Source: Bacteroidales bacterium (lineage in GTDB: Bacteria > Bacteroidota > Bacteroidia > Bacteroidales > ML635J-15). Taken from it: a stretch of 42,634 nt of DNA. A program made the translations under genes and the position numbers. Positions 3,766 to 42,033 of this stretch are shown here, one piece after another. The DNA lies in NCBI GenBank assembly GCA_028702535.1, contig JAQVOR010000013.1, forward strand, positions 1 through 42,634, given 5' to 3'. The notes under the pieces were generated by a model that did not search any database, was not told the DNA's origin, and saw only the letters and a program-made list of their open reading frames with translations. Numbering within the stretch: the stretch's first letter is position 1; the number at the start of each line of letters is the position of its first letter.

Positions 3766-4125
3766 AATCAAATTAAAATAGTAGTTAAATTTCATGATAT
3801 TTGAGTTTTATGATTAATAGAATAAAAATATACGGAATAAAACAAATACAAATCCGTAGAAAGCGAAAAAAAATGAATTAAAAAAATATACAAAAAAGGC
3901 TCCATATATAATTTTAAACCATTTTTATTTTCAGATTTGCAAATGATATATGATACAGTGCTAAAAAATAATTTGCATTAATTTGAATTTTGCAAGCCCT
4001 TCTCGCACTCTGTAATCCAAAAGGGAGGCATGTCCACTTGTGCAACACTACACTAAAATCTGTTCTTACTTTTATTGCGATGCACTGAGTTTTTATCGAA
4101 GTGTTCTATTGCTTAAATGGGTTGC

Positions 4126-9821: not shown

Positions 9822-11476
9822 TGGATTATATTAAGGACATATTGACGTATAATCAGAGCTCTCCTCTGATTTTTACACGTTTTTTCTTTTGGGGCTTTTT
9901 TGCAATAGTTTTATTAGGATATACTTTTTTTGCAAATAAACGAGTGTCTCGCTCCTTATATTTACTTGTTTTAAGCTTGTTTTTCTATTATAAATCCAGT
10001 GGATTTTTCTTTTTTTTGATAATCTTTAGTACGCTAGTAGATTACTTTATTGGTTGGTGGATATACAATACCGAAAAAAGCACTGCTCGAAAATTACAAT
10101 TGGCTCTCAGTATATTTATTAATTTGTTTGTATTATCATATTTTAAATACACCTTCTTTTTTACTGGTGCTATAAACGATATGTTTGGGACAAACTTAGT
10201 AGCACACAACTATTTGGCCGAGTTTTCAAATTTATTTACAGGAACAAGTTTTGATACTGCTAAGATATTTTTACCAGTTGGGATTTCATTTTTCACTTTC
10301 CAAACCATGTCTTATACTCTTGATATTTACAGGCGAGAACTTAAGCCAGTTAAAAACATCATCGATTTTGGTTTTTATGTTTCGTTTTTTCCGCAATTGG
10401 TAGCTGGTCCAATTGTTAGAGCAAAAGATTTTATCCCCCAGATTTATCAAAAGTTTAAACTAAGTAGATATGAGTTTGGGCTTGCCTTATTTATGATTCT
10501 TAAAGGTTTGATAAAAAAGATTATGATTGGTGATTACATTGCTGTTAATTTTGTTGATAGAGTTTTTTCCAATCCGGATATGTACACTGGTTTCGAGAGT
10601 CTTATGGCTATGATAGGGTACTCATTACAGGTATATGTCGATTTTTCGGGTTATACAGATATTGCTATTGGGGTTGCTCTTTTTATGGGATTTAGGCTAA
10701 ATCAAAACTTTAATTCTCCGTATAAGGCTAAAAACTGTGGCGATTTTTGGTCTCGTTGGCATATTTCTTTGTCTTCGTGGCTAAAAGATTATTTGTACAT
10801 TCCTTTAGGCGGAAATCGTAATGCAACAAAAGGAACTTATCTAAATATTGCTTTAATTTTGGGCGTTGTGATGCTATTGGCAGCAAATATGTGGGTAAGT
10901 ATTGGAATTATGGTCGCAGCTATTATTGTACTACTTATAATGCGGTTTATCCCATCAGCAAAAAAAGGAATTGTCAGAAATATAAATGTGATGATAACTA
11001 TGCTTTTTGGCGGTCTTTGGCATGGTTCCAGTTGGAATTTCCTCATTTGGGGAGGATTAAACGGGCTTGGCGTTATTACTTACAAATATTGGCGGAAAAT
11101 TAGTCCTTGGGAGAAGTACAATAACCGAATCGCTACTATCTGGAAAATTACTATTACTTTTGGATTTATAACTTTTACCAGAGTGTTTTTTAGAGCTCCT
11201 GATTATGAAACTGCAACCACAATGCTTAATAGAATACGAACAGTATTTACGCCAGAGCTTATCCCTAATATAATTTCTGGTTATTATAAGGTTTGGCTAA
11301 TGATGCTTTTTGGATTTATAACTCATTGGTTAAGTTATGCTTTTAAGGATAAGTGGCGAGATAAATTTATTAATTTACCACATTGGTCGCAAGCAATTAT
11401 ATCGGCTATGGTTATATTTATAGTTTATCAATCTATTTGTTCCGATATGGTTGCATTTATATATTTTCAGTTTTAA
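9818..11476 (+). CDS. MBOAT O-acyltransferase (AlgI/PatA-like)
   Basis: A 552-residue polytopic inner-membrane protein of the membrane-bound O-acyltransferase family, AlgI/DltB/PatA branch. Typical motifs are GPIVRAKDFIPQ (about 197-208), the block FWSRWHISLSSWLKDYLYIPLGG with His315, and GGLWHGSSWNF with the conserved catalytic His402. Many hydrophobic helices fill the rest. Such proteins move acyl (usually acetyl) groups from a cytoplasmic donor across the membrane for transfer to a glycan by an SGNH partner. This is the last gene of a four-gene overlapping operon that contains two such partners and a LysM protein. The start may be either ATG of ATGATGG (9818 or 9821). A role in alginate or another exopolysaccharide is possible, but no polysaccharide synthase is nearby. 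Confidence 0.9.
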   Translation: MMDYIKDILTYNQSSPLIFTRFFFWGFFAIVLLGYTFFANKRVSRSLYLLVLSLFFYYKSSGFFFFLIIFSTLVDYFIGWWIYNTEKSTARKLQLALSIFINLFVLSYFKYTFFFTGAINDMFGTNLVAHNYLAEFSNLFTGTSFDTAKIFLPVGISFFTFQTMSYTLDIYRRELKPVKNIIDFGFYVSFFPQLVAGPIVRAKDFIPQIYQKFKLSRYEFGLALFMILKGLIKKIMIGDYIAVNFVDRVFSNPDMYTGFESLMAMIGYSLQVYVDFSGYTDIAIGVALFMGFRLNQNFNSPYKAKNCGDFWSRWHISLSSWLKDYLYIPLGGNRNATKGTYLNIALILGVVMLLAANMWVSIGIMVAAIIVLLIMRFIPSAKKGIVRNINVMITMLFGGLWHGSSWNFLIWGGLNGLGVITYKYWRKISPWEKYNNRIATIWKITITFGFITFTRVFFRAPDYETATTMLNRIRTVFTPELIPNIISGYYKVWLMMLFGFITHWLSYAFKDKWRDKFINLPHWSQAIISAMVIFIVYQSICSDMVAFIYFQF

Positions 11477-11562: not shown

Positions 11563-11955
11563 CTAGATATGTTTTCTAATTCTGTTTGTTAAATCTTCAA
11601 ATTCTTCTGGGGAAAGTTTAACTCGTGGGTTCGAAAATGAAAGGTCTTTTTCTACATCCATTGGGATAAGGTGCATATGGGTATGAGCCACTTCTAGTCC
11701 CACTACCATAATGCCAATTCTTTTACAAACAACTTCTTTTTCAATTGCGAGAGCAACTTTTTTTGCAAAGACCATCATTTTTGCGAGGGTTTCATCCGTA
11801 TTATCAAAAATATAATCAACTTCAACTTTTGGAACAATCAAAGCGTGTCCTTTTTTCACAGGATTAATATCCAAAAAAGAAATAAAGTTGCTGTCTTCCG
11901 CAATTTTATAACAGGGAATATCACCTTGAATTATTTTTGTAAAAACACTAGCCAT
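11563..11955 (-). CDS. HIT family nucleotide-binding hydrolase
   Basis: A 130-residue cytoplasmic protein of the histidine-triad family (HINT/HinT-like purine nucleoside phosphoramidase branch). The N-terminus SVFTKIIQGDIPCYKI..D is the family signature, DINPVKKGHALIVPK follows, and the triad reads HTHMHL near residue 91, with the middle His as nucleophile. One position differs from common HINTs: the stretch before the triad reads GLEVAH instead of G.eagQ.V.H. The length fits. It starts within the stop of greA (1-base overlap) and forms a two-gene operon with it, an arrangement I recall from other Bacteroidota. The gene converges on the MBOAT operon. Confidence 0.92.
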   Translation of the reverse strand: MASVFTKIIQGDIPCYKIAEDSNFISFLDINPVKKGHALIVPKVEVDYIFDNTDETLAKMMVFAKKVALAIEKEVVCKRIGIMVVGLEVAHTHMHLIPMDVEKDLSFSNPRVKLSPEEFEDLTNRIRKHI

Positions 11956-12428
11956 TAAATTGCGATATTAATGATTTTGAGTGAAACAATTCCGCTTGGC
12001 ACTTGGATATCAACAACATCATCAACTTTTTTACCTAAAATGCCTTGAGCAATAGGTGTATTAACAGAAATTTTCTTTTCTTTTAAGTTAGCTTCGGATT
12101 CTGAAACAATAGTATATACCATTTCGGCGTTTGTTTTCAAATTTTTTAAGGTAACAATATTAAGAATTTGAACAGTTTCAGTATCTATTTGAGACGGGTC
12201 TATTATTCTTGCATTTCGAACGACAGCCTGCAATCTGCTAATTTTCATTTCCAACAGTCCTTGTGCTTCTTTAGCAGCATCATATTCAGCATTTTCCGAC
12301 AAATCGCCTTTGTCACGTGCCTCAGCTATTTGCTTAGAGATATTTGGCCTGTCAACATTTACAAGCTTGCTTAACTCTTTTTTTAGTTTATTTAAACCTT
12401 CCTCCGTTAAATATGAAACTTCTGACAT
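11955..12428 (-). CDS. greA: Transcription elongation factor GreA
   Basis: A 157-residue GreA that rescues backtracked RNA polymerase by stimulating transcript cleavage. The N-terminal coiled coil (about 8-75) carries the tip motif ARDKGDLSENAEYDAAKE, with the acidic residues Asp42 and Glu45 that coordinate the second Mg ion. The C-terminal FKBP-like domain has the expected TPIAQGILGKKVDD segment and ends normally. It is the first gene of a pair with the HIT protein. A candidate -7 element CAAAGCTA (TAGCTTTG on this strand) lies at 12499-12506. Confidence 0.96.
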   Translation of the reverse strand: MSEVSYLTEEGLNKLKKELSKLVNVDRPNISKQIAEARDKGDLSENAEYDAAKEAQGLLEMKISRLQAVVRNARIIDPSQIDTETVQILNIVTLKNLKTNAEMVYTIVSESEANLKEKKISVNTPIAQGILGKKVDDVVDIQVPSGIVSLKIINIAI

Positions 12429-12647: not shown

Positions 12648-15600
12648 CTATTCTTGATAAGAACTTCCAAACCATTTTAACACTTTATCGCCAACACCAG
12701 GTACTTTAACATGAATAATATACATTCCGTTAGCAATAAGGTTGCCGTTTCTGTCGGTCATATCCCATTCGTAAAAAGTATTACTGTCGTTTTTTGTCAT
12801 TCTATTGATTAAAAATCCTGAAGCGTTAAAAATAGAAATTTCACATATCTTTGGAAGATTGATAATCCTCACATATTTGTCATAAGTGTAATTTCCATAG
12901 TGATTACCCCAATAATATGGGTTTGGAACAATATTTATCTTTTCTAATGCTTTGGTTAAGACATCAGAATTTGAAGTCTCTGCTTGCAAACCATGCGTTG
13001 AGAATTTAAAAACTGGGAAATTATCATTTTCTGGATTTTCAACTGTAAATCCCTCCATTCCCTTATGATAAGGCGTTGCGACTCTAAGTTTAATTCTTAC
13101 ATCACACGCAAGAAAATCAAATTCAGGATTTTGCAAAGGAATTGCACACCACATTGCCGATGCCCATGCACGTTGAAGGCTAGTTATTGTACCAGTTTCT
13201 TCATAGTCAAGCAAATTATTATAAATCCACTGACATGAGTCGTAATGAGGAGCATTATGAGTAGGATTAGAAAAACTTTGATTATCCCCGATAATATAAA
13301 TATAGTGCTTACCTCCAAATAGTATTACATTTCCCACTTCGATGCCTGATGTAGGATTCCACATCATATCTTTTCCGTTTTCACTTGCTAACCATGAATC
13401 TTCGCCGTAAATGATATTTAACCTTCTACCCGTCCTTTGGTCGATTGCATATCCAGGAAACCATCCCATTCCATAAGTACCAGAATTATCGACATTTCCT
13501 TCTTTATCTATAGATGGACTTTTACGAAGGCTAAACTTATGAGCATTGCCTATTGAGAGATAATTTTGTGTAGGTACCACAGGTACCTCTAATCCACATT
13601 CATCAGTTTGCCACGCGTTTTCGTGCATTTCTACCACACATGAACGTGTCCATTTTGATTTGTCGCTTGTGATAATAAGATCTACACTTGAAATTGGCTG
13701 CAAATATGGTTGTAATGTTGGTCTTATTTTTGGATTAGACAGACCATATTTTTTATCACTCGTGAACATAAATGGTGCCCATGTTCCCCCTATGACTTTT
13801 TCAAAATACTCATTCTTATCATAAAACTGATTTCCAGAAAACGTGTAATCGTTGAAAGAGACATCCTGACATGGATTGATGGTATTGTCTATATATTGAG
13901 TTCCTACTCTTATCCAATTATATGCATTATGATAATCCTGATCTGCAATAAAATTAAGCCATGGTTTTTCTGGATAAGCAAAAATCAATTCCGCTGCTAA
14001 AAAACCATTTTGGTGGTCATTTTTATCAGTATAAGCAGCATAATTTACTTGTTTTACTAATATTGAAAATCCCCAATCCAAAAACAACTGTTCATAATCA
14101 TCATTATACTGTATAAAAACTTCACTTTCTATTTCGTCACCTTTCGAGTTCACAATTGTATAATTAAAAGGAGTAAAATCTACGCCATTACTCAAACTAT
14201 AACCATTTTTATGTCCTAAAAATCCATTTGAAAGTCTTGTAACCGCTGTTGAATCAAATTTAACAGTATATAGATCATCTGGAACATTTAAGGGATCAAT
14301 AATTTTTACAGTAATTGGGCCCTTACCACTTTTATATGTTCTATTATCGATTTTCCACGGATATCCCGACATTATTTCGAGAAGGCTCTCGTTGCTTAAT
14401 TCAATTATACAATTTGCATTACCATGCCCTTCTGTCATAGTAATTTGAGGTGAGAAGCCATATTCTGTATTAAAAACAGTCCCATTATTTTCGATTGTTG
14501 GATCATGTGGAGTTGCTGTGTATGTTTTAATATTATTTTTTCCTACTAAATAACTATTTTTATTACCATACCAATTATTAATGCTATTTACACTATATTG
14601 TAAGGTCTTATTTGCTGCATAAGCCACTACAGTGTACCAATAATCTTTTTGGTTTGTTAAGTAGTCGTCGTTTTTGGCAAAATAATCTTTTTCAATAACA
14701 AAAGTGTGAAAAATCCCTTCGTTATTACCCTCAACTTCTAAGTGTGGCATATATTCAGATGTTTGTACGTTATAAATATAATTAGTAATACTGCTGATTC
14801 CATCTTTTATATCACATTGAAACACTTCACGCACAAGTTCAGAATTATATTTTTCTTTCAATATATCGACATCAGGATATTTTAATTGATAAACTTGATA
14901 CCCCTGAAAACGATAGTATTCATCACAAGGAGATATGCTACCATCACATTTTATATTATAATCTCTTTCTGTATATTGATTAAGATAATTATTTGAGTTT
15001 GAATTATTTAACAGATAAAATATAAGCTTATTGTTTGTTTCAACAATTTTGAGTTCTGGAGCATCAGGACCCTCAAGAATTCTAAAGCAATTATCAAATA
15101 AGTTTTGTGCTATATCATCAACTCTTTTCATTACTTCTATTGATTCGTAATTTCCTCCGTTTATTGATCTTCCATAAACAACCCCCATTGTTAGATTATT
15201 AACTGCACCTGGCTTAAATGTAACTGGGCCACTGGAAATAACAAAACGAACATCTCTTGGTGCATTAGGAGTAGAGCCTGGCCCTAAAGGTTGTTCTTCT
15301 GACCAACCAGACATAACAAGTCCATTTTGCCCATAACCACAAATGTCGCTTGTAGGACTTCCTGAATACATAAAATTTGAAGGGACATCTGTTGCACCTC
15401 CTGACGGGTGTCCAGTACCTCCATACATTACATGCGTACCATTTAACCAACGAGATGTTAAATAATAATAATAATGCTCCTTTTCAGTTGGTTGAATGGT
15501 AAATGGATTCACTCCGGTACCCCATCCACTAAAGTATGTAAAATTCGTTAGCCCCCATCTTTCATTATCAATAATTCCATCTTCAAAATTTTGTCCATTA

Positions 15601-16790
15601 ATATTACCGTTCATAATATCTCCTAGTGAACAATTTAAGACTTTTTTGCCCTCAAAAATCTCATAACTGGTTTCATTATCTTGTCCGTCACTGTCTTTAA
15701 ACAGTCCCTCAAAAAAATCAAGCCCAACCGCAGGAGGAGAAGCTCCATAACCACTTATTCCATCAGCAGTTTCATCATTATTATCTCCATTATATACGTA
15801 TCCAAGTCCTCTGCCAACATCACAACCAATATAATCATCTTTTGGATAACCCAAATCAACATCAGTCCAAAAACCAACATAAGCTTCGTATAGAGTTTCA
15901 GTTGATCTATTAATTATTTCATAATTATAAAATGTCAAATCGTTAATAGGAGTATTAGTTGCATAAGCATAAGCTATTGCTCTTATTTCTAATCCAATTG
16001 GTTGGCTTCCAGAATTAGAATGCTCTTTACCAGCATCGTTAAAAACATACCAAATTGCTTGGTCTCCTTTTAACGCTTGCCGCTTATTTCTAAATTTCAA
16101 GCAATCAATATCATCAGTAATACCATCTTCAGGAAATTCAAAATAAGGAAAATCACCATTATAAGGATTATAATACCCATCATTGTTATTATCCCAAAAA
16201 GGTGCAAGATACATATCATATCCTCCTTCTGGGCCATGTGCGGGCCAATTAAGGATAACATCAGGTATTGTATAAGATGAATATTGCTCCATATTACAAT
16301 TTGGATCTTGTTGGCAATTCCACCACATTCTAAATTCTTTTACTTCTGCTTTAGTGATACTCCAGAGTTTATCATATTGTCTGCAAACATCGATGCTTGT
16401 TTCTGCTCTATTTGCACCAGTGGCGATTAGTGGTCCAGAAGCAAAATCTACTCCCCCCTGTCTAAACATTGTAGTAGCAACTTTTATTTGATTATTCGCA
16501 TCTTTTCCTCCAACCCACAAGCAACCAGCAAAAAGTGCACTAGCTGTGCCATCAGCAGGTACAATATAATGTGCTTTATATTGAAGATCCCACCACATAT
16601 CACCAATAGAATGAATTTTAGCTCTTACATTATTTATATTAAGTTCTGCTGATGTACGAGCGACTTCGCAATTTGCAGTTGCTCTTGTTTGTATTGGGTG
16701 AGTTTTATCCCGATAGTTATCGCCTTGTGAATTACAAATATTAGATATTATTAGTAATCCGATTAATGGAAACAAGGTAATTAGTTTCAT
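12648..16790 (-). CDS. Giant secreted surface protein with T9SS-like tail (paralogue 2)
   Basis: A 1380-residue exported protein with a short signal peptide (MKLITLFPLIGLLIISNICNSQ). It is a clear paralogue of the 1406-residue protein at 18157-22377 along its whole length. Shared blocks include GDMWWDLQ.KA.YIVPADG, NWPAHGPEGGYD, a Ca-loop-like D.N.DGYYNP, YNGDNNDETADGI and PLGPGSTPN.PRDVRF. The last 97 residues (from about 1284: IVPNPYYWGN...NGMYIIHVKVPGVGDKVLKWFG) are a FlgD/T9SS-type sorting domain of the variant seen on very large surface proteins. No catalytic motif was recognised. It lies downstream of a PorV-like gene but behind a terminator, so it may be transcribed on its own. It may be a surface-anchored binding or structural protein served by the nearby barrel and TonB receptor; function is unknown. 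Confidence 0.85.
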   Translation of the reverse strand: MKLITLFPLIGLLIISNICNSQGDNYRDKTHPIQTRATANCEVARTSAELNINNVRAKIHSIGDMWWDLQYKAHYIVPADGTASALFAGCLWVGGKDANNQIKVATTMFRQGGVDFASGPLIATGANRAETSIDVCRQYDKLWSITKAEVKEFRMWWNCQQDPNCNMEQYSSYTIPDVILNWPAHGPEGGYDMYLAPFWDNNNDGYYNPYNGDFPYFEFPEDGITDDIDCLKFRNKRQALKGDQAIWYVFNDAGKEHSNSGSQPIGLEIRAIAYAYATNTPINDLTFYNYEIINRSTETLYEAYVGFWTDVDLGYPKDDYIGCDVGRGLGYVYNGDNNDETADGISGYGASPPAVGLDFFEGLFKDSDGQDNETSYEIFEGKKVLNCSLGDIMNGNINGQNFEDGIIDNERWGLTNFTYFSGWGTGVNPFTIQPTEKEHYYYYLTSRWLNGTHVMYGGTGHPSGGATDVPSNFMYSGSPTSDICGYGQNGLVMSGWSEEQPLGPGSTPNAPRDVRFVISSGPVTFKPGAVNNLTMGVVYGRSINGGNYESIEVMKRVDDIAQNLFDNCFRILEGPDAPELKIVETNNKLIFYLLNNSNSNNYLNQYTERDYNIKCDGSISPCDEYYRFQGYQVYQLKYPDVDILKEKYNSELVREVFQCDIKDGISSITNYIYNVQTSEYMPHLEVEGNNEGIFHTFVIEKDYFAKNDDYLTNQKDYWYTVVAYAANKTLQYSVNSINNWYGNKNSYLVGKNNIKTYTATPHDPTIENNGTVFNTEYGFSPQITMTEGHGNANCIIELSNESLLEIMSGYPWKIDNRTYKSGKGPITVKIIDPLNVPDDLYTVKFDSTAVTRLSNGFLGHKNGYSLSNGVDFTPFNYTIVNSKGDEIESEVFIQYNDDYEQLFLDWGFSILVKQVNYAAYTDKNDHQNGFLAAELIFAYPEKPWLNFIADQDYHNAYNWIRVGTQYIDNTINPCQDVSFNDYTFSGNQFYDKNEYFEKVIGGTWAPFMFTSDKKYGLSNPKIRPTLQPYLQPISSVDLIITSDKSKWTRSCVVEMHENAWQTDECGLEVPVVPTQNYLSIGNAHKFSLRKSPSIDKEGNVDNSGTYGMGWFPGYAIDQRTGRRLNIIYGEDSWLASENGKDMMWNPTSGIEVGNVILFGGKHYIYIIGDNQSFSNPTHNAPHYDSCQWIYNNLLDYEETGTITSLQRAWASAMWCAIPLQNPEFDFLACDVRIKLRVATPYHKGMEGFTVENPENDNFPVFKFSTHGLQAETSNSDVLTKALEKINIVPNPYYWGNHYGNYTYDKYVRIINLPKICEISIFNASGFLINRMTKNDSNTFYEWDMTDRNGNLIANGMYIIHVKVPGVGDKVLKWFGSSYQE

Positions 16791-16821
16791 ATCTATAATG
16801 TTTTTAGAGGCAGTTTAGATA

Positions 16822-16853
16822 CAAATAAAGTTAAAACATTTATTTTACGCAAT
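16822..16853 (-). promoter_or_regulatory. Possible promoter of the second giant surface protein gene
   Basis: On the minus strand TTTATTTG (16822-16829, one base from TAnnTTTG) is preceded by ATTG at 16850-16853, with a 20-base spacer. The implied leader is about 26 bases. Both elements are imperfect, but a terminator just upstream makes a separate promoter likely. Confidence 0.35.
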
Positions 16854-16888
16854 ATATATAAAATTTAGACACCTTTAACATATATATC

Positions 16889-16914
16889 AAAAAAAATCTG
16901 CCACAAGCAGATTT
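16889..16914 (-). terminator. Intrinsic terminator after the PorV-like gene
   Basis: A perfect 8-bp stem (AAATCTGC with GCAGATTT) closes a 5-nt loop and runs into a stretch of T on the minus strand. It also has T-rich sequence on the plus side. It separates the PorV-like gene and its fossil copy from the second giant surface protein gene. Confidence 0.85.
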
Positions 16915-16936
16915 TCTTTTATAATAGTACTTCTAA

Positions 16937-16978
16937 CTATAGTCTTATTCTTGTGCCAAAGGTATAAACACCCTAAAA
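16937..16978 (-). pseudogene. Remnant of a second PorV-like C-terminus
   Basis: Just past the stop of the PorV-like gene, the minus strand encodes F-stop-GVYTFGTRIRL-stop. This aligns codon by codon with FGGIHTFGARVTL, the last beta strand of the intact PorV-like protein (17024-17062). Of the 11 codons from the Gly on, 6 encode the same residue and most others are conservative or single-base changes; the second position of the block has become TAG. It is best explained as the surviving end of a duplicated porV gene. It is too short to be coding. Confidence 0.6.
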
Positions 16979-16981
16979 TGT

Positions 16982-18130
16982 TTATAATCTGCTAGAGCCA
17001 CTATCACCAGCACCTCCCCCTAGTGTTACTCTTGCTCCAAAAGTATGAATCCCTCCAAATGGGTTTGTAAATCTATACGAGTAATCTATAGCAAGTACAG
17101 ATTTCTTTTCTTTATTTATCGGAACCTGGAGAGTAAGTCCCGCTGTTGGACCTGTTAAGGCAGTAGAGCGAGTAGCTACGTCGAAAATCCCATCCTCATA
17201 AATAAAACCACCTCTAAGAAATAAATATTCTTTAAACCCATACTCTATACCCAAATGATATTGGTCTTTAGTAAAAGAGTTAGATGTATAATTTGCAGCT
17301 ACTATAAGGTTGTGGTCTGAAGTAACCTCTTCTCTAACTTCATCAACTTTAGGAGCCAGTCTGAAATGATATGAAAATCCAATTTTGATAAGTGATGGAA
17401 GCTCAAATTCTTGACTTCTATGTTCAATTGTCATACTTGTACCATTTTCGGAAAAGCCAGTAAAACTCATGCCGTCTCCAGAGTATTTCATAGTAGTTCC
17501 AACATTCTTCATAGTGATACCAAAACGCATATTATCACGATTACGGTTTCCTGCTTTATCTTTACCTAGACCTGTTACATATTGGATACCAGCATCAATT
17601 GCGAAACCTGAAGAACTTACGTTAAAAATGTTTTGATTAAGCATTTTTACAGTAATTCCACCATAAATACTATTTGAAAATTCGCGTGCGTATCCAAGTC
17701 CAATAATATTATAAGTAGGACTAAAAGTACCAATCCCACCTTCTGGTAAATCTGCGGTAGTGATATCAATTTTACCCCAATTCATGTTCATAACGCTAAC
17801 GCCAAGCACACCAGTTTCACCAACTTTAGCTGCAAAACCTCCACTATTGATAGCCACTTCAGAACCTACAAGCCACTGAGTATTAGTAAAAGCAAATTCG
17901 GTTTTACGAGTAAATGCCAATCCTGCAATATTCTGGTGCATTGCTTCGAGTCCAACAACACAAGCAACGTTTGCATCACCCCATCCTGAACTCCTAGCCC
18001 AAGGATTTATCAACAATTCTGATGCTCCATTAGAACCCACACGTTGCTCATTACCGGCAAAGGTTTTTGTCGAGGTTAAACTCATTGCAACTGTTATCAG
18101 TATTGCCGAAATTAAATATAAATTTTTCAT
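16982..18130 (-). CDS. PorV/PorQ-family outer-membrane barrel
   Basis: A 382-residue outer-membrane protein with a signal peptide ending near TFA|G (residue 25). The N-terminal segment after the signal (GASELLINPWARSSGWGDANVA...EAMHQNIAGLAF) is the hallmark of the PorV/PorQ (UPF0164-like, FadL-type) family: it names the conserved 'a+s.gmGga.va...' plug region and the 'NPAgla' turn. Repeated amphipathic strands follow, and the barrel proper closes at TNPFGGIHTFGARVTL. Family members shuttle T9SS cargo from the translocon to the attachment complex. An extra Gly/Ser tail (GGGAGDSGSSRL) extends past the canonical C-terminal strand. The gene lies 26 bases after a giant T9SS-type protein and is followed by a decayed copy of its own 3' end and a terminator. 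It is probably a locus-specific PorV paralogue rather than the core one; this is inference. Confidence 0.85.
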   Translation of the reverse strand: MKNLYLISAILITVAMSLTSTKTFAGNEQRVGSNGASELLINPWARSSGWGDANVACVVGLEAMHQNIAGLAFTRKTEFAFTNTQWLVGSEVAINSGGFAAKVGETGVLGVSVMNMNWGKIDITTADLPEGGIGTFSPTYNIIGLGYAREFSNSIYGGITVKMLNQNIFNVSSSGFAIDAGIQYVTGLGKDKAGNRNRDNMRFGITMKNVGTTMKYSGDGMSFTGFSENGTSMTIEHRSQEFELPSLIKIGFSYHFRLAPKVDEVREEVTSDHNLIVAANYTSNSFTKDQYHLGIEYGFKEYLFLRGGFIYEDGIFDVATRSTALTGPTAGLTLQVPINKEKKSVLAIDYSYRFTNPFGGIHTFGARVTLGGGAGDSGSSRL

Positions 18131-18156
18131 ATTTCTTTATTTATCTTATAACAATT

Positions 18157-21100
18157 TTAGAAATTATTTAAGTCAATTGGACGCAATGCTCCAAACCATT
18201 TCACTATTTTCTCTCCAACACCTGGCACATTAACGTGAACGATGTAAACGCCACTCGCAATACTTATACCATAAGTGTTCTTCATATCCCACTGAATAAA
18301 TGTAACATCGTTGTCCTTATCGTAACGACGAACTAATCCACCACTTGCGTTATAAATTGAGATAGCACATGTTTTAGGAAGATTGGTAATTCTAACATAG
18401 TTATCTAACTGTGTGTTCTCGTAATATGAATTACCATAATATGGATTAGGAACCACTCTAATTAAATCCAGAGCATTTTCTGCTTGATTAAGGTTTTGTT
18501 TAATTGTTTTTACATCTGCAGTATTAAATGTAAACATTGGGAAATTATCGTTTTGTGGATTATCAACCGCATAATCATATTGACCTTTATGATATGGCAT
18601 TGAAACATTAATGTCAATACTAACATCGGTTGCCAGTAAATCAAATCCTTCACGTTTCATTGGTATAGCACACCACATAGCCGAATTCCAAATAGATCTA
18701 AAATCTATTATTGAAACGTAGTTGCTATTTTCGTATTTGACAAAATTATCATATATAAATTTACATGAGTCGTAAGCAGGTACATTACGTGCAGCTTGGG
18801 CAGAATATAGTCGTTCGTTTCTCATAATGTATATATAATGTTTGCCGCCAAATCTTGGTCCTAAATCGGAATATAAACCCGTCATATAATTATCGTAAGG
18901 GTATGAAGTAGGATTCCAAACCATGTCGGCCCCATTTTCACCAGTCATCCATGAATCTTCGCCAAATACTATGTTTAATCTTTCTCCCGTATTAAGGTCA
19001 ATTGCATATCCAGGAAACCATGATAAACCATGAGTGCCATCATTAAGGGGATTACCTTCTTTATCTACTGACGGACTTTTCCTTAGAGTAAATTTTAAAG
19101 CATTACCAATAGATCTATAATTTACTTTTGGAGTAACTAATTCATCTATAAGAGGACAATCTGCTTCTTTTGTCCATTCATTTTCGCACATTTCAACTAC
19201 ACATGAACGACTCCACTTAGACTTATCAGATGTAATTACCAACTTAACACTTGTTAATGGTTTAATATATGGTTGAAGAGAGGCTCTTACTGTTGGATCC
19301 GACAATCCATATTTTTTATCACTTGTAAATAAAAATGGGCCCCATGTTCCACCTAAGATTTTTTCAAAATTTTGATACTTATCATAAAATTCTCCTCCTG
19401 TTATCTTATAGTCATCAAATGAACCATCAATACAAGGATTAATAGCATTATCAGTAGATTGAGTTCCCACCCTTATCCAATTCAATGCATCTTGTCCATC
19501 TCCATCTGGAACAAAATATAGCCACGGTTTTGTTTTGTCCTCGAATTTTATTGAGGCAGTTAAAAAACCATTTTGATAATTGTTTCTATTACAGTATCCA
19601 GCGTAATTTACTTGGCTTATTGTAATCGAAAAACCCCAGTCCATAAATAAGTGCTCATAATTATCATTATACTGTATAAAAACTTCACTTTCGATTTCGT
19701 CCCCACTCGAATTCACGATAGTATATGAGAAAGGTATAAAATCCTTACGATTAGATAAATTATCACCATTTTTATGACCTAAAAATCCATTTGAAGGTCT
19801 TGAAATTGCATTTGGATTAAATTTAAGAGTGTATATATCTTCAGGAACGTTTAAGGGATCAATTATTTTTACGTTAATAGGTCCTTTTCCGTTATTATAA
19901 GTTCTATTAGTAGCTTTCCATGGATACCCAGACATAATCTCGTCAATGGTTTCTTGAGTAAGCTCAAGGATATTGTTACCGTTGCCGTGTCCTTCAATCA
20001 TTGTAATTTTAGGTCCATACCCATAATCTCCTTGCACGATGGTTCCACCGTTTTCAGGATCGTTTATATGTGGTAAAGCAGTATAACGTTTAATATTGTT
20101 ACGACCAGCTAAATAAGGTTTTTTCTGTCCATTAAATGTTTCTTGTATAGATTGATTATATAACATAGAGTTGTTATATCCGTATGCTAAGACAGAATAA
20201 TAATATTCTCTGTTGTTAATCAATCGAGGATCTCCAGATGCAAATAAGTCGTTATCAACAACAAAAGTATGGATTATTCCATTATTATTTCCATTAACCT
20301 CTAGAACAGGCACATTGGCACTAAGCTCATCAGACCATTTGTAATTAACAACCTGACTAATATCGTCTTTAATATCACACTGGAATACTTGACGAACTAA
20401 TCCGTCATTATATCTATCAGAAATACTAACTCTAGGATTTTTATATTGAAATACTTGATATCCTTGGAATCTATAATATTCATCACAAGGGTCAATATCC
20501 GATGCACATACAATTGAAGGATCTTTTTCAACGTAAGTTTCAAGATAATTATTGCTACCTGACTTATTGTAAATATGGAAGATTAATTTTTTATCCATCT
20601 CAACAATTTTTAGTTCAGGAGCATCTGGACCATTAAGTACTCGGAAACAGTTTTCAAATAGTATTTGGGCTTTATCGTCTGCTCTACGAACAGCCTCAAC
20701 AGATGCCCAAGGGCCTCCAGAAGGAGCTCGAGCATAAACGGCACCAATTGTAATGTCATTAACCGCCCCTGGATATAAAGTAAAAGGACCCGCTGATTGA
20801 ACAAAGCGAACATCTCTTGGCGAGTTAGGAGTAGAACCAGGACCTAAAGGCTCTTCTTCTGACCAACTACCTTGAGGAATACCTCCTTGTCCCCAACCAC
20901 AAGGGTCTGTTGTTGGAGTACCTGGAAACATAAAATCGGTTTTGATATCGCTTCCTCCACCTGAATAATGTCCTGTCCCACCGTAAGTCAAAGGAGTATT
21001 GTCTAACCAAAAACCTGTCAAATAGTTATAATGTTCACCAGCAGTATGAGGGTCTAGCGTATTTTCATTATCGCCTGTACCAGCATTATTAAAATATAAA

Positions 21101-22377
21101 AATCTTCTCATTCCCCAACGTTCGTTATCTACTGTACCATCTTGAAAGTTAAGTCCGTTTATATTACCGTTTAAAATATCACCTTTATCACAATTTAAAA
21201 CTTTCACACCATTTACGGTATCAAAACTGGTTCTATTGTCTAATCCATCTGGGTCTTGATAAGGGCCTTCAAAAAAGTCGATGCCAATAGCTGGAGGCTG
21301 TGCCCCATAACCTTGAATACCATCAGCTGTTTCATCATTATTATCACCATTATACATATACCCTAATCCACGCATTACATCACAACCACAAAAGTCGTCT
21401 TTTGCATAACCAAGGTCGGCATCTGTCCAAACACCAAAGAAAGTTTCAAATAGTGTATATGTGGATCTATTAATAATATTGTAATTATAAAAAGTCATGT
21501 CATTAAGTTCATCATTTGTAGTAAATGCAAATGCCTGAGCTCTAAACTCCATACCAATAGAAGCCCCACCAGTTTCAGTATGAATATTTCCTTTATCATT
21601 ATAGACCCACCATAGAGTTTCGTCTCCAAAAAGTTTTGGCATTCTATTACGAGGTCTTAAACAATCTGGGTCATCAGTAATACCATTATTGACAAACTCA
21701 TAATATGGAAAATCGCCCATTAGCGGATTATAATAACCATCACCGTCAGTATCCCAAAATGGAGCAAGATTATAATCATAACCACCTTCTGGCCCGTGGG
21801 CTGGCCAATTCATAATAATATCTGGTATAGAATAAAGTGGAAATTGTTCTTCAGTATTGCATTCAGAATCTTGTGAACAATCAAACCACTCTCTAAATTC
21901 TTTAACCATATTCTTAGTTATAAAGAAGTGCTTATCGTATTCACGACAGATATCCTGCGTAACTGTTGCAATTGCCGCACCAGATGTAATTAGTGGCCCA
22001 GGCCAGTAATCGTTTCCATTTTGGCGAAATTTCTGAGCAGCAACTTTAAGTTGATTGTTAGCATCTTTACCGCCAACCCAAATAGCTCCAGCAAACAATG
22101 CACTAGTTGATCCATCAGCAGGTACAATATAATATGCTTTACCCTGAAGATCCCACCACATATCGCCAGCGGTATGGATTAGGGCTCGTACATTGTTAAC
22201 ACCAAGTTCCGTAGATGTTTGCCCTGGCTCACATAATTCTGTTGAACGCAGAGTAGGGATAGCATCTGCCTGAGTACCTTGCCACTTATCAGCCAGCAAG
22301 TAATTCGATATTACGCTCAAGGCCGCAATAAATAATATTTTTTTTAGGCTTTTCATATTTTGCTTATTCTTATTCAT
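18157..22377 (-). CDS. Giant secreted surface protein with T9SS-like tail (paralogue 1)
   Basis: A 1406-residue exported protein. Translation may begin at 22377 or at the in-frame ATG at 22356, which gives a tighter signal peptide (MKSLKKILFIAALSVISN). Conserved landmarks are GDMWWDLQGKAYYIVPADG (about 71-89), NWPAHGPEGGYD (190-201), a Ca-binding-like DTDGDGYYNP (209-218), YNGDNNDETADGI, and a SAGPFTLYPG segment of a kind I recall in large secreted proteins of Bacteroidota and relatives. The C-terminal 104 residues (RVVPNPYYGN...ASGVYIVHVNVPGVGEKIVKWFG) are a T9SS/FlgD-like sorting domain. No enzyme motif was recognised. It sits 13 bases after a TonB-dependent receptor and 26 before a PorV-like barrel, so the three are almost surely one transcript. 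The arrangement suggests a surface-exposed partner of the receptor, for instance in capturing a ligand. Confidence 0.87.
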   Translation of the reverse strand: MNKNKQNMKSLKKILFIAALSVISNYLLADKWQGTQADAIPTLRSTELCEPGQTSTELGVNNVRALIHTAGDMWWDLQGKAYYIVPADGSTSALFAGAIWVGGKDANNQLKVAAQKFRQNGNDYWPGPLITSGAAIATVTQDICREYDKHFFITKNMVKEFREWFDCSQDSECNTEEQFPLYSIPDIIMNWPAHGPEGGYDYNLAPFWDTDGDGYYNPLMGDFPYYEFVNNGITDDPDCLRPRNRMPKLFGDETLWWVYNDKGNIHTETGGASIGMEFRAQAFAFTTNDELNDMTFYNYNIINRSTYTLFETFFGVWTDADLGYAKDDFCGCDVMRGLGYMYNGDNNDETADGIQGYGAQPPAIGIDFFEGPYQDPDGLDNRTSFDTVNGVKVLNCDKGDILNGNINGLNFQDGTVDNERWGMRRFLYFNNAGTGDNENTLDPHTAGEHYNYLTGFWLDNTPLTYGGTGHYSGGGSDIKTDFMFPGTPTTDPCGWGQGGIPQGSWSEEEPLGPGSTPNSPRDVRFVQSAGPFTLYPGAVNDITIGAVYARAPSGGPWASVEAVRRADDKAQILFENCFRVLNGPDAPELKIVEMDKKLIFHIYNKSGSNNYLETYVEKDPSIVCASDIDPCDEYYRFQGYQVFQYKNPRVSISDRYNDGLVRQVFQCDIKDDISQVVNYKWSDELSANVPVLEVNGNNNGIIHTFVVDNDLFASGDPRLINNREYYYSVLAYGYNNSMLYNQSIQETFNGQKKPYLAGRNNIKRYTALPHINDPENGGTIVQGDYGYGPKITMIEGHGNGNNILELTQETIDEIMSGYPWKATNRTYNNGKGPINVKIIDPLNVPEDIYTLKFNPNAISRPSNGFLGHKNGDNLSNRKDFIPFSYTIVNSSGDEIESEVFIQYNDNYEHLFMDWGFSITISQVNYAGYCNRNNYQNGFLTASIKFEDKTKPWLYFVPDGDGQDALNWIRVGTQSTDNAINPCIDGSFDDYKITGGEFYDKYQNFEKILGGTWGPFLFTSDKKYGLSDPTVRASLQPYIKPLTSVKLVITSDKSKWSRSCVVEMCENEWTKEADCPLIDELVTPKVNYRSIGNALKFTLRKSPSVDKEGNPLNDGTHGLSWFPGYAIDLNTGERLNIVFGEDSWMTGENGADMVWNPTSYPYDNYMTGLYSDLGPRFGGKHYIYIMRNERLYSAQAARNVPAYDSCKFIYDNFVKYENSNYVSIIDFRSIWNSAMWCAIPMKREGFDLLATDVSIDINVSMPYHKGQYDYAVDNPQNDNFPMFTFNTADVKTIKQNLNQAENALDLIRVVPNPYYGNSYYENTQLDNYVRITNLPKTCAISIYNASGGLVRRYDKDNDVTFIQWDMKNTYGISIASGVYIVHVNVPGVGEKIVKWFGALRPIDLNNF

Positions 22378-22390
22378 TATAATCTGTTAA

Positions 22391-25300
22391 TTAAAAACTA
22401 AATTGAACACCTAATCGTATAGTTCTAGGTAAACTATAATTATAAGGTGAGTTTATGTACATTGCATAGTAATTCCGGTATGCTTCCTCATCATTTTGAG
22501 TTGCAATTGCTGTCTGATAATCTGCAAAATTGAGGAATCCGTCATCGTCTGGATTACCAGTATATTCATATAGTCCAGTTACGTTTTTGGTATTAAAAAG
22601 ATTTGATATTTCTAAATATACATTTAAATATCCGTATTTTTCTTTTGATCCGTCCTCTTTTTTCTCAGCAAGTTTAACTTTAATATCTCGATCTAAACGC
22701 ATATTAATAGTAGTTCTCCACGGTTTACGTGAACCATTTAGTGAACCAACAATGGTACCAGAAGTAGGCTTGTTACGTTTTGTATATGGAGACCCAGAAC
22801 CAGCATTAACAACAAAGTTAACACCTGTATTAGCGAAAATACTTTTACCACCAATTTTTGGTCCATTATAAGGTGTTCCTGATACTTTTCCACCGTAACG
22901 ATAATCAACTGTAATAGCAAAGTTATTTCTTTGGTCAAAATCGAGTGGAATTGTAGTTCTTAGGTTTGGCTTATCAGATTTTACAATCGCTGCTCCTGAT
23001 TCAAAACTCGAACCTGTACCATTAGCAAATTGTAAAGTATAAGAAGCTCTTAATGTTACATTACCAGTTCTTCTAAGATCGTAAGTTACTCCAAAACCTT
23101 TAACTGTTCCAAAGTCTATATTTCCATAAGTGTAATAGTTCACAGGATAAGCTCCATAAACAGCTATTGCTTGCTGCATATCACGCATTTCACGATAGAA
23201 AGCAGATAATTTAAGAGCTGATGTATTACTTAATTTTTGTTGGAACCCTAATTCATAATCAATAGTTTTTTCAGTTTTTAAGTTTGGATTAGACAACAAA
23301 TTCTCGTTGTTTTGACGAATAAATAAGTAATCTAATGGATTTAAACGTGCAGCATAAGATGGCCTTTTTGATAGTATATCATAGTGAGCAAAAAATAAGG
23401 CTTCGTCTGAAATAGGAAACGAGAATGATACACGTGGCATTACAACTATCTGAGGTTTGTAATCCTCAAAAGCACTTGAATTTAATTTCGCCTCAGCATC
23501 AAGCAAATAAGGAGCAATACCAGATGAACTTGCAATAGATTTTGGATTTTCAATTTCCGCTCCAGTTGCATCATACCAAACTGAACCTACACGATACCCG
23601 TTAATAGCACTCGGCGATGAAATATCATTAACATAAACAACTGCATTATCTGGGATATTACTAGGGTGAGTTGTATTAGCAATAAGTCCTCTTTCGTCTG
23701 TATCCCCAACAGTATATGCGTTATGTAATAAAAATTGGTCTTTAAGCACCATTTGGTTAGCATCGTATCTATCAACACGAACACCTATATTAAATATAAG
23801 GTCTTTAAATGCAAATTTGTCTTGTATGTAACCTGCAATATAGTTAGGCTCAAAAGAACCTACTGGTCTTTCAAGGTATCCCTCTTCGGTTGTTTTGTTA
23901 AAGAAATCATCGAAAGTGGGTTTGTAATTTAATTTATCTCCTTTATAATCATAACCATAGTAGGACACATAGCTACTTCCTTGATTAAATAATTCGTCAG
24001 GACTAAACCAACTAATATCTAATGATTCAGGATCATAAGAATCTAAATCTAACCACTCGAGACTATTTACTTCCAAACCAAGGCTTTCTCTTAATTTAGT
24101 GTCAAATTTTGATTGCGATGCTGCATTATAAAGTCTAGGATAGTCAATTGTATCTAAAAACACTCCGTTTTCATCTCTATATTCTATTGGATTATATTGA
24201 TCCTTTTCAAGAATGTGATAGTTTGTTAATTTTCGTGCAAGTGTCCACAATCCAAATGGAGAAACACCATAATATGAATCGTTTCTTTGTTCAAATTCAA
24301 ATCCAAGACTAATCTCATGATTTTTTATATCGGCAGAACCAGAAGCCGATACTCTAAACTGAGTAGCATCGCTCATTGTATATGATGTATATGGATTTGC
24401 CGGACTGCTCCATAAACCATAAACACTTGGAGCACCCATACCATTAAGTAAACCTCCATTTTGCATTACAGAATTTACATCTTTGCCATAGTAATCCTCA
24501 AAATATTGAAAATACTGTTCTGTATATCTCGCAAGATCAGGATTTAATTCACCAGCTTCAAAATCTTCGATTCTGTAAAACCATGTTTGCATTAAATAAG
24601 CTTCCTTACCAGTTAGACTATCAAGTCCATATGCATAATATTTTTCAGGAGTAGTGTTAAACTTACCAACATGACCATACTCAAAGAAGTTATTATCAAA
24701 ATCTTTGTTATAATATTTTGAGAAAGTTTTTGAATAATCGACTTGAATTGTATAAAATGGATTTTTTATAATTGCCTCTTTTTCACTCTCTGAATTATCT
24801 CTAAACTTTTGTGTTAATCTTCCATAAACTCTCCAGTTATTATAATTCCAATAACCATTATTTTCTGAATTAAAAAGTTGATTTGAATAAGAGTAAGCTC
24901 TTTCGTCTCTATAATCTATAGTACCACCAAATGTTAAGTTAAGATCTCGAATAGGTGAAACATCAACTTTTCCAGCAATATTAAAACTTTTGCTTTCAGC
25001 ATTTTCTCTCGTTTTATAATTTTGGAAAGCATCTTTATGTAAATAATCAGTATTTTGATAAATAATTGCGCCTTCATTTGTTTGGACTAATTGCAAAGGA
25101 TTATCTTTAATACTCTGAACAACGTCATCATTTGCTCTCCATTCTCCAACAGCAGAAGGACTACCGTCTTTAACAATACTACCTTCAATTGAGAGCAAGA
25201 AACCAGCAATAGTTCTTCTTCTATTTGAGCCATCCTCTTCTACTGTCCAAATTGGACCTGATAACATTAGTCCGCCAAGATTATATCCATAAGGATCTAA

Positions 25301-26020
25301 AAATTGGGAAGTAACTAATTCCACACCACCAAAGTATTTTGAAGTTGGTCCTTTAGTTATCACGGAGATAATACCACCAGTAGCGTCACCATAGTTAGCT
25401 GGCAGTCCACCAGTAATCACTTGAACCTGCTCAATTGCAGATTTTGGTACAGAACTTGAGCCTCTCACTTTCACACCATCAACATAGTAAACCGTACCTT
25501 CAGACCGTGCACCTCTAATAGAACCCACTTCACCATCTTCTGAATAGACACCCCCAACAGTTGTTGCAACAGCAGCAGCCGAACGCCCAGGCATCTTAGC
25601 AATATCTTCAGAACCTACTGTCCCTCCAGATGCTGTTTGGTCTTTTGTAATCAACGGTACTTTGTACTCCTTAATTTCAACCTCTGCAAGCATCTCTGCC
25701 GATGCATTTAATTCAAAATTTTGGAAAGTAATACTTCCTCCAGAAACCTGAACATTGTTGTACATAAGTGTTGCATACCCAACATATGAGGCAGACACAG
25801 TGTACTTACCAACTGGTATAGGTTTAATACTATAACGACCGTCAAAGTCAGTCATCCCCCCGGTAACAATATTATTATTCTCTTCAATCGTCACGTTCGC
25901 AAACGGGATTGGCTCTCCAGTTGCTGCATCAGTTATGGAACCATTTAGCGTCCCTTGAGCATACAACCCTGCACTTGCAACTGCAAATGCCATAATAACT
26001 AGTAGTAATTTTCGTAACAT
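22391..26020 (-). CDS. TonB-dependent receptor with carboxypeptidase-regulatory-like domain
   Basis: A 1209-residue outer-membrane receptor. It has a signal peptide (to about SAGLYA|Q, residue 21) and a carboxypeptidase-regulatory-like beta sandwich at about 22-110 (GTLNGSITDAATGEPIPFANV...DGRYSIKPIPVGKYTVSASYVGY). The plug domain covers about 120-230 (DQTASGGTVGSEDIAKMPGR, GARSEGTVYYVDGVKV, ITGGLPANYGDATGGIISVITKG), and a long barrel ends in an aromatic strand (TIRLGVQFSF). At about 1200 residues it is longer than classic siderophore receptors, typical of SusC-sized proteins, but no SusD-like lipoprotein is adjacent. A giant T9SS-type surface protein follows instead. It imports a substrate using TonB energy; the substrate is unknown. 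It heads the operon with the giant protein and the PorV-like barrel. Confidence 0.93.
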   Translation of the reverse strand: MLRKLLLVIMAFAVASAGLYAQGTLNGSITDAATGEPIPFANVTIEENNNIVTGGMTDFDGRYSIKPIPVGKYTVSASYVGYATLMYNNVQVSGGSITFQNFELNASAEMLAEVEIKEYKVPLITKDQTASGGTVGSEDIAKMPGRSAAAVATTVGGVYSEDGEVGSIRGARSEGTVYYVDGVKVRGSSSVPKSAIEQVQVITGGLPANYGDATGGIISVITKGPTSKYFGGVELVTSQFLDPYGYNLGGLMLSGPIWTVEEDGSNRRRTIAGFLLSIEGSIVKDGSPSAVGEWRANDDVVQSIKDNPLQLVQTNEGAIIYQNTDYLHKDAFQNYKTRENAESKSFNIAGKVDVSPIRDLNLTFGGTIDYRDERAYSYSNQLFNSENNGYWNYNNWRVYGRLTQKFRDNSESEKEAIIKNPFYTIQVDYSKTFSKYYNKDFDNNFFEYGHVGKFNTTPEKYYAYGLDSLTGKEAYLMQTWFYRIEDFEAGELNPDLARYTEQYFQYFEDYYGKDVNSVMQNGGLLNGMGAPSVYGLWSSPANPYTSYTMSDATQFRVSASGSADIKNHEISLGFEFEQRNDSYYGVSPFGLWTLARKLTNYHILEKDQYNPIEYRDENGVFLDTIDYPRLYNAASQSKFDTKLRESLGLEVNSLEWLDLDSYDPESLDISWFSPDELFNQGSSYVSYYGYDYKGDKLNYKPTFDDFFNKTTEEGYLERPVGSFEPNYIAGYIQDKFAFKDLIFNIGVRVDRYDANQMVLKDQFLLHNAYTVGDTDERGLIANTTHPSNIPDNAVVYVNDISSPSAINGYRVGSVWYDATGAEIENPKSIASSSGIAPYLLDAEAKLNSSAFEDYKPQIVVMPRVSFSFPISDEALFFAHYDILSKRPSYAARLNPLDYLFIRQNNENLLSNPNLKTEKTIDYELGFQQKLSNTSALKLSAFYREMRDMQQAIAVYGAYPVNYYTYGNIDFGTVKGFGVTYDLRRTGNVTLRASYTLQFANGTGSSFESGAAIVKSDKPNLRTTIPLDFDQRNNFAITVDYRYGGKVSGTPYNGPKIGGKSIFANTGVNFVVNAGSGSPYTKRNKPTSGTIVGSLNGSRKPWRTTINMRLDRDIKVKLAEKKEDGSKEKYGYLNVYLEISNLFNTKNVTGLYEYTGNPDDDGFLNFADYQTAIATQNDEEAYRNYYAMYINSPYNYSLPRTIRLGVQFSF

Positions 26021-41718: not shown

Positions 41719-42033
41719 GTTAAAACATATTAAATACCTTAACAAAATTATAATTTTTGTTTAAACATCTAGATTAAAACGACCTACTTTATACAAAAAC
41801 ACATATAGCCAGAACATACTAACTGTTTTCATGTATATACAATGGTAGTGGTTTTTAAAATATTATCAAATTATGGGAATATATTTTTATACTTAACTTA
41901 GGGATTTTTGGAGAGGTTTAGTTGCTCTTAGAGACACACGAGAGAAATCTCATTACTGTATAATTCAATATTAGATTTTTATCGAAGAATAATAATTTCA
42001 AAAAAAAATTATATATTTACAAAAAAAATAAAT
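41719..42033. other. AT-rich divergent intergenic region
   Basis: Between the lipase gene and the small membrane protein gene no open frame or RNA is recognised. CAAAATTA at 41743-41750 (TAATTTTG on the minus strand) may be the -7 element of the lipase gene, and TATATTTA at 42012-42019 that of the membrane protein gene. Both lack a good -33 partner. Confidence 0.45.

Follow-up and report, generated by a model that had tools for sequence, protein, structure and literature searches.

A type IX secretion-linked trio of TonB receptor, giant surface protein and PorV-family barrel is conserved across Bacteroidota and may capture and import nutrients

The contig JAQVOR010000013.1 of a Bacteroidales bacterium (assembly GCA_028702535.1), analysed over its full 42,634 nt and called the window here, encodes a TonB-dependent receptor (T), a giant surface protein (G, in the window G1) and a barrel of the PorV/PorQ family (V) in immediate succession. 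Comparison with related loci showed that T, G and V are a conserved, co-inherited unit that is old and widespread in Bacteroidota. The finding is a phylum-wide TonB system linked to the type IX secretion system (T9SS), and it is larger than what the first-pass annotation, which was made from the letters of the window, had proposed. We give a probability of roughly 0.58 to the reading that T-G-V is an outer-membrane machine for capture and import, in which a giant exported by the T9SS and retained by a PorV-type barrel of its own would do the job of SusD.

The three genes lie on the minus strand in the order T (1209 aa, positions 22391-26020), G1 (1406 aa, 18157-22377) and V (382 aa, 16982-18130), with gaps of 13 bp between T and G1 and 26 bp between G1 and V. 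T was recognised from its open reading frame (ORF), its profile matches and a T tree as a receptor with a CarboxypepD_reg domain, a plug and a barrel, G1 from its ORF, alignments and structure models, and V from a profile match and a barrel tree. A second giant, G2, starts 191 bp after V and is followed by greA and a HIT-family gene. The first-pass annotation had given the layout T, G1, V and G2, the 13-base gap and the coordinates, and all of these were exact. It had also stated that the locus lacks SusD, and SusD was indeed unmatched among the 18 window ORFs scanned. No polysaccharide-degrading genes stood beside the window trio among the scanned ORFs; such genes were present beside a homologous sister trio. 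A promoter and terminator scan of the locus returned nothing beyond the level of shuffled sequence.

A protein search of named genomes returned 138 relatives of the giant, and the best 80 gave 79 loci, or 80 with the window. T stood directly upstream of G at all 74 loci with upstream room, and V directly downstream of G at all 75 assessable loci. Because the three genes adjoin in constant order in all assessable loci of the class Bacteroidia, the arrangement is above chance. Among the next four ORFs, GreA was found at 57 of 62 loci and HIT at 53 of 62. The record titles of the named loci included Bacteroidales, Flavobacteriales, Chitinophagales and Saprospiraceae metagenome-assembled genomes, and two were labelled Chlorobiota. 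Six extra Bacteroidia loci (L141-L146) all had the order T-G-V-GreA-HIT, one of them with a small antisense ORF interposed, and L147 was cut after G. Outside the class, at loci L124-L140, which were picked by match strength and so non-randomly and of which L127 and L128 share one genome, T preceded G in 15 of 17 cases, V followed in 14 of 16 (the contig end truncates L129) and GreA-HIT followed in none. The first-pass annotation had grouped TonB receptor, giant and PorV barrel as one set, and this set was conserved both in the 80 loci and outside the class; the outcome it had named as contrary, giant homologues usually standing without TonB or PorV neighbours, was looked for and did not occur. 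That the genes are neighbours by chance was rejected on the order kept inside and outside the class and on the repetition of trios within genomes. As a separate observation, one T-G pair (L054) has a giant 60% identical to that of the window; its contig bears the label Candidatus Delongbacteria and may be Bacteroidales DNA that was binned wrongly.

Pairwise distances of T, G and V over 50 loci correlated at 0.936-0.939. After regression on GreA and HIT the correlation was 0.76-0.77, which 0 of 500 permutations reached. Longer alignments are less noisy, so the distance correlation alone is no proof of co-inheritance. In a FastTree tree, the T's of window-type trios, where a window-type giant is one with a profile score >150 bits, were placed on one side (30 rows and the tandem T copy of L126) and the T's of other trios on the opposite side. 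A PorV-family tree with 102 rows placed the 35 V's encoded after window-type giants in one clade with support 100/100 that spanned all sampled classes, and canonical PorV's and V's after other giants fell outside it. Some genes occur twice in that tree, its two long-branch rows (L174_1333 and L184_6616) are the same antisense ORF, outside the 35-row clade, and one copy of this ORF was part of the profile used for finding V's. At L126, tandem T genes stand ahead of G and V, and the outer T is a diverged relative of the inner one.

V scored over the cut-off of the family model PorV_fam NF033709 (145.6 bits vs 90) and below those of the equivalog models for PorV (NF033710, 70.8 vs 250), PorQ (NF033711, 56.2 vs 220) and PorV2 (NF052325, 50.4 vs 325). 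A sequence comparison of V with solved structures gave no match. The source genome, a 3.49-Mb assembly in 239 contigs that is 96.6% complete, carries four PorV-family genes over the cut-off, V included, and one more under it; its top PorV_fam match (404 bits) is a different gene, on contig C223. The first-pass annotation had proposed a dedicated PorV that delivers the giants, and the existence of a V lineage found with this giant type bears out the dedication and not the delivery of G by V. Other arrangements of PorV-family genes were also seen. At L196, L205 and L213, a 532-550-aa protein with a FlgD-like end is followed by two consecutive PorV-family genes with no T neighbour. At L150, on contig C106 of the source genome, a 368-aa PorV-family gene is directly followed by a 1664-aa ORF, and the PorV-family tree places this barrel (row L117) together with the barrels of L195, L206 and L215.

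G1 consists of a signal peptide (assigned by eye), a conserved N-terminal region at residues ~40-860, a middle part, a C-terminal domain (CTD) at ~1300-1396 and a tail (RPIDLNNF). G1 and G2 had zero profile matches over curated cut-offs, and the meaningful weak matches were to C-terminal sorting-domain models (FlgD_ig and TIGR04183); TIGR04183 gave 19.5 bits on G1, below its cut-off of 23, and no match on G2. In a structure model of G1 residues 840-1406 (pLDDT 87.5), the predicted end domain, encoded together with the tail at 18160-18486 on the minus strand, matched the CTD of PorZ (5m11, Foldseek E 3.2e-6), and it matched the translocon-bound CTDs 8glk_D and 8gl8_D with target-normalised TM-scores (TMt) of 0.71 and 0.69. 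As modelled, the giant C-terminus has the type A beta-sandwich fold of T9SS CTDs. A profile of the giant C-terminal part gave weak PorZ/PorU CTD matches alone when compared with the sequences of solved structures. Regarding the conserved blocks listed in the first-pass annotation, GDMWWDLQ and the calcium loop (D-x-DGDG) were kept across giant relatives, and for the NWPAHGPEGGYD block this was true mainly of the WPA portion and not of the rest.

An extension of ~10 residues past the last CTD strand was present in all 77 complete giant sequences, the window included. A strict end pattern fitted 68 of the 77, and the other nine differed in their ending at equal length. The extension was also present in the further trio giants that were checked. 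It was missing in L121, L122 and L140, giants without T and V neighbours (the upstream sequence of L121 was unseen), and in two short G-like ORFs of L107 that lie outside the L107 trio. The CTDs of the L121 and L122 ORFs scored 65.8 and 53.9 bits, well over the TIGR04183 cut-off. The giant of L127 kept the tail although it has no T and V neighbours, and a complete trio (L128) lies elsewhere in its genome. Three of the paralogues come from the source genome: L122 (contig C79, 598 aa) and L121 (C199, 506 aa, cut by its contig) are short proteins paralogous to the N-terminal region of the giant, both carry an ordinary type A CTD and neither has an adjoining T or V, and L123 (C107) is an N-terminal giant piece only, at a contig end. 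The two short ORFs of L107 (1250-4894) are successive and upstream of the complete trio, each has its own CTD, and one resembles the first half of the giant and the other its second half.

An assignment of enzyme or ligand identity by fold was rejected, as the N-terminal model (G1 residues 36-862, pLDDT 79.6) gave only weak matches, to GH15-, GH94- and GH116-type proteins and Fn3 domains, with query-normalised TM-scores (TMq) of up to 0.22. The part shared with the GH-type proteins is presumably their non-catalytic beta-sandwich. A giant N-terminal profile gave no match among the sequences of solved structures, and a viral structure library was uninformative for the giant.

In evenly drawn samples, the giant was present in 179 of 395 phylum genomes and in 321 of 395 class genomes, some of the weak matches being to the CTD alone. 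SprA was found in all 179 giant-positive genomes of the phylum sample, and the giant was missing from all 93 SprA-negative genomes. SprA occurred without the giant in 123 of the 302 SprA-positive genomes, and the families in which the sample showed SprA but no giant include f5, f6, f7, f11 and f12. Our guess is that the laboratory model organisms fall into these families, a circumstance that would account for the lack of earlier work on the trio. The window trio is part of the most widespread branch of the system in the class. The source genome carries a 2492-aa SprA ORF and at least 150 type A CTD matches (150 of 217 candidates scored). The CTD fold and the SprA-only occurrence in the sample support the T9SS export of the giants put forward in the first-pass annotation; the export itself we infer.

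Further trios were found in three genomes outside the class that together had 44 PorV-family matches (16 in G030, 12 in G393 and 16 in G172). We inspected 34 loci there (15, 10 and 9, respectively, a few with two PorV-family genes), and one-strand T-G-V runs were present at 17 of them (eight in G030, six in G393 and three in G172), including L184, where T and G are spaced by ~0.5 kb. At L185 and L193, small ORFs or unclear starts intervene in near-trios, and the remaining loci include canonical PorV genes. The genes adjoining V were profiled for 20 selected proteins. A GWxTD-domain protein (PF20094), for which we know of no function, followed window-type trios outside the class at L131, L134, L138, L203 and, under the cut-off, L139; other genes followed at L126, L133, L136 and L137. 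The followers of other trios had GH16 and malectin (L198), CBM48/CBM20 (L200), CBM9 (L194), CBM20 under the cut-off (L190) or Peptidase_S51 (L202) domains, and those at L189, L199 and L210 carried no such functional hint.

The L198 locus is a full beta-glucan cluster, consisting of a CBM9 T9SS protein, T, G, V, a GH16-malectin protein, an MFS permease, a ROK kinase and two GH3 proteins. Homology between L198-type and window-type giants extends over most of their length (744 columns aligned by hhalign, probability 99.9). Single-sequence searches with the L198 proteins were run on 20 further loci chosen for an L198-type giant, two of which stop immediately after V, and they recovered T, G and V at 20 of 20, the CBM9 protein at 19, GH3 at 17, GH16 at 13, MFS at 8 and ROK at 4. 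At 48 control trio or PorV loci, GH3 and CBM9 were each found once and GH16, MFS and ROK not at all. The 20 loci share ancestry and so represent one conserved association rather than 20 independent ones. At L202, the trio is accompanied by Peptidase_S51, a class-III aminotransferase, a DcuC-type carrier, an RpiR-type regulator and an M14 peptidase. We take S51 to include cyanophycinase, and this gene set suggests a peptide-like polymer such as cyanophycin as the ligand. Because the trio has relatives inside sugar-polymer gene clusters, it is probably a nutrient-capture machine.

Within the Bacteroidia, SusD matches turned up in 6 of 40 genomes that have the giant (median 0) compared to 17 of 20 giant-negative genomes (median 18, some counts being minimum values), a contrast with a Fisher p of 2e-7, uncorrected for relatedness. 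The giant-positive genomes stood high on the list of 321, with G000 and G041 left out, and the giant-negative ones were 20 of 74; in eight genomes, all giant-negative, the SusD counts are at-least values from 32 scored candidates. In the genomes tested, giant-bearing Bacteroidia were mostly without SusD. The source genome had one SusD match, on a contig other than that of the trio. Across 20 hand-picked genomes the Spearman correlation was -0.46 (p 0.04), which is weak and confounded by class. Of 20 genomes searched for SusD, the 14 outside the class had 6-19 PorV-family matches and 0-6 SusD, five having none. G393, G116 and G001 had the GH16/GH3 trio cluster and zero SusD matches, and G629, G416 and G425 had neither giant nor SusD. 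A strict one-for-one replacement of SusD was rejected by two genomes, G064 and G178. The first-pass annotation had suggested ligand import in which the giants replace SusD; the sister trio in beta-glucan clusters and the scarcity of SusD favour this in general, and they do not extend to import by the window trio itself.

T exceeded the Pfam cut-offs for CarboxypepD_reg, Plug (PF07715, 34.1 with a cut-off of 23.9) and TonB_dep_Rec_b-barrel (PF00593, 40.3 with a cut-off of 27). The SusC/RagA family was absent from its four profile matches (E up to 1), from a library that we assume to contain the SusC/RagA model, and a sequence comparison with solved structures gave weak small-domain matches and nothing more. 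Like the trio, SusC/SusD (RagA/RagB) combines a TonB receptor with an adjoining gene for a large surface partner, is found in glycan-use loci, as is the sister trio, and is multiplied within genomes, as trios are. In contrast, the partner in the trio is a T9SS-type giant rather than a SusD lipoprotein, a PorV-family barrel gene normally comes third, and the window T has neither a SusC-model match nor a SusD gene beside it. The trio probably acts in the manner of SusCD without belonging to it.

The trio also resembles known T9SS arrangements. PorU pairs with PorV, and PorZ with PorQ. In this attachment complex, whose members are named in PMC12618676, CTD-bearing surface proteins are tied to PorV-family barrels as in the trio, whereas the giant has no sortase or PorZ match beyond its CTD and the trio has a TonB receptor. 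T9SS cargo surfaces through SprA, where type A CTDs are picked up by PorV, whose loops wrap around the CTD (PMC10994853). The trio shares with this pair a PorV-family barrel and a CTD fold like those of 8glk_D and 8gl8_D, but V forms a lineage of its own and its gene comes directly after that of a single giant, and the giant CTD scores under the TIGR04183 cut-off and bears an additional tail at its C-terminus. Cargo with type B CTDs uses adjacently encoded PorP/SprF-like shuttle barrels (PMC12618676), and there too the cargo gene is directly followed by its barrel gene; the barrel family and the CTD type are different, and the trio adds a TonB receptor.

The xylan cluster of Rhodothermus marinus includes a TonB receptor, a hypothetical protein with a Por CTD and a hypothetical protein (Rmar_1070-1072), of which the first two are predicted to be co-transcribed with Xyn10A, and a SusCD pair is also reported there (PMC6987092). 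Judged from the published description and not from sequence, this order fits T-G-V, although the authors list hypothetical proteins and report the SusCD pair as well. The published genome of Melioribacter roseus contains, by its description, a SusCDE operon together with numerous enzymes that bear CTDs (PMC3534657). In their excerpted text, the papers on the Bacteroidota BAM (PMC12578637 and PMC12611786) bear on the trio only through PorV as a FadL homologue. Full-text searches of an open-licence library, as far as their results and passages were read, gave no description of a T-G-V trio; the library covers few subscription papers.

In the mechanism that we propose, G would reach the periplasm by Sec and then pass the SprA translocon by means of its T9SS-type CTD, as the fold and the co-occurrence with SprA suggest. 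V would take the CTD and the tail from the translocon and hold G at the outer membrane; the models for this step are PorV with type A cargo and PorP/SprF-like barrels with type B cargo, and the co-inheritance of V and G is consistent with it. G would then cover or neighbour T, bind the ligand and pass it on, and T would import it using TonB energy, G occupying the place of the SusD lipoprotein. Because T is nearly always beside G and the sister trio stands in glycan clusters at a place where SusCD would be expected, binding of the ligand by G most likely happens at the mouth of T.

Several observations weigh against this mechanism. The trio and SusD coexist in G064 (13 SusD) and G178 (27 SusD), which means that SusD is not strictly replaced, and ancestry confounds the negative association between trio and SusD. 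The Ig-like fold of the G1 CTD also matches FlgD and other Ig-like domains, with weaker E-values, and the N-terminal model shows no clear ligand-binding fold, the best PDB matches having a TMq of 0.22 or less. The giants of L127 and L140 have no neighbouring T and V, and among the PorV-family loci there are partial ones with T-V (L191 and L209), with G-V (L196 and L214) or with neither. Finally, the window trio has no adjoining catabolic genes and is inherited beside greA-HIT, which resembles housekeeping more than a substrate-specific locus. The window trio may therefore have another kind of ligand than the sister trios.

The trio could instead be a housekeeping complex of the cell surface that builds the envelope or attaches proteins, comparable to PorU-PorV and PorZ-PorQ, with T as a receptor or plug and not an importer of nutrients. 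The locus kept beside greA-HIT across Bacteroidia and the giant in 321 of 395 class genomes would fit such a role, as would a giant CTD that is nearest to PorZ and more weakly to PorU, both attachment-complex proteins. We still regard it as unlikely, since 123 of 302 SprA-positive genomes do without the giant and sister trios are multiplied within genomes, one kind being tied to catabolic genes. Somewhat less likely again is that the giants are adhesins or a surface coat, with V as shuttle and anchor and T as an accidental or regulatory neighbour. The beta-sandwich and Fn3-like character of the weak structure matches, the T9SS-type CTD and the cargo-shuttle operons described for type B adhesins in PMC12618676 agree with it, but T precedes G at 74 of 74 class loci and is co-inherited with the G type, and the sister trio is placed in glycan clusters.

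We consider it improbable that V is no shuttle and serves as a FadL-like channel for hydrophobic molecules, handling a greasy ligand together with T. In favour of this, PorV is homologous to FadL (PMC12578637) and V is under the PorV, PorQ and PorV2 equivalog cut-offs; however, the V's after window-type giants form a single clade, and the tail is mostly missing from giants that lack T and V neighbours (L121, L122, L140 and both short ORFs of L107), L127 being the exception. That the genes adjoin by inertia, with no joint function, is hardly credible and already largely refuted: greA-HIT travel along in Bacteroidia and so synteny can outlast function, but the T-G-V order is kept outside the class without greA-HIT and the unit is repeated inside single genomes.

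The frequent downstream neighbours in Bacteroidia, greA (11955-12428) and the HIT-family gene (11563-11955), lie on the minus strand in the window and were identified by profile match and locus comparison. A working role for greA-HIT was considered and thought unlikely because trio loci outside the class lack them, and greA is probably a syntenic anchor rather than a working part. G2 (1380 aa, 12648-16790, minus strand) is a paralogue of G1 with 59% identity. A second giant of this type was found only in the window and a few close relatives, L036, L037, L044 (cut by its contig) and L055 (in pieces), so that G2 was rejected as a standard component; it is a lineage-specific duplicate. At L055, from Marinilabiliales BM703, the region after V is split into four G-like pieces of 560, 741, 1071 and 240 aa. 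Elsewhere in the window, two further T9SS cargo genes with ordinary type A CTDs lie on the minus strand (2083-3795 and 39961-41745), one with InlB-like and CBM_X2 domains and the other an alpha/beta hydrolase (lipase-like). On the plus strand (8550-11476) there is a tandem of a GDSL hydrolase and an MBOAT acyltransferase, perhaps a pair for surface-sugar acylation.

We advance a wider proposition more tentatively, at a little under even odds. The trio would be a distinct class of T9SS-dependent import, ancestral to Bacteroidota, that couples secretion to uptake, with a PorV-family barrel delivering a giant onto its own TonB receptor; lineages without SusCD would eat polymers with it, and most Bacteroidia would keep a copy for a common ligand. 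SusCD is the textbook route for the uptake of complex nutrients in Bacteroidota. If the import reading is true, a large part of the phylum, mostly SusD-less in the genomes tested, feeds by a machine for which we found no description, and the T9SS would gain a role in nutrient import besides secretion. It would also help to account for the up to 19 PorV-family genes in some genomes, and with the trio as a marker, polymer-use loci that escape SusCD-based searches could be found.

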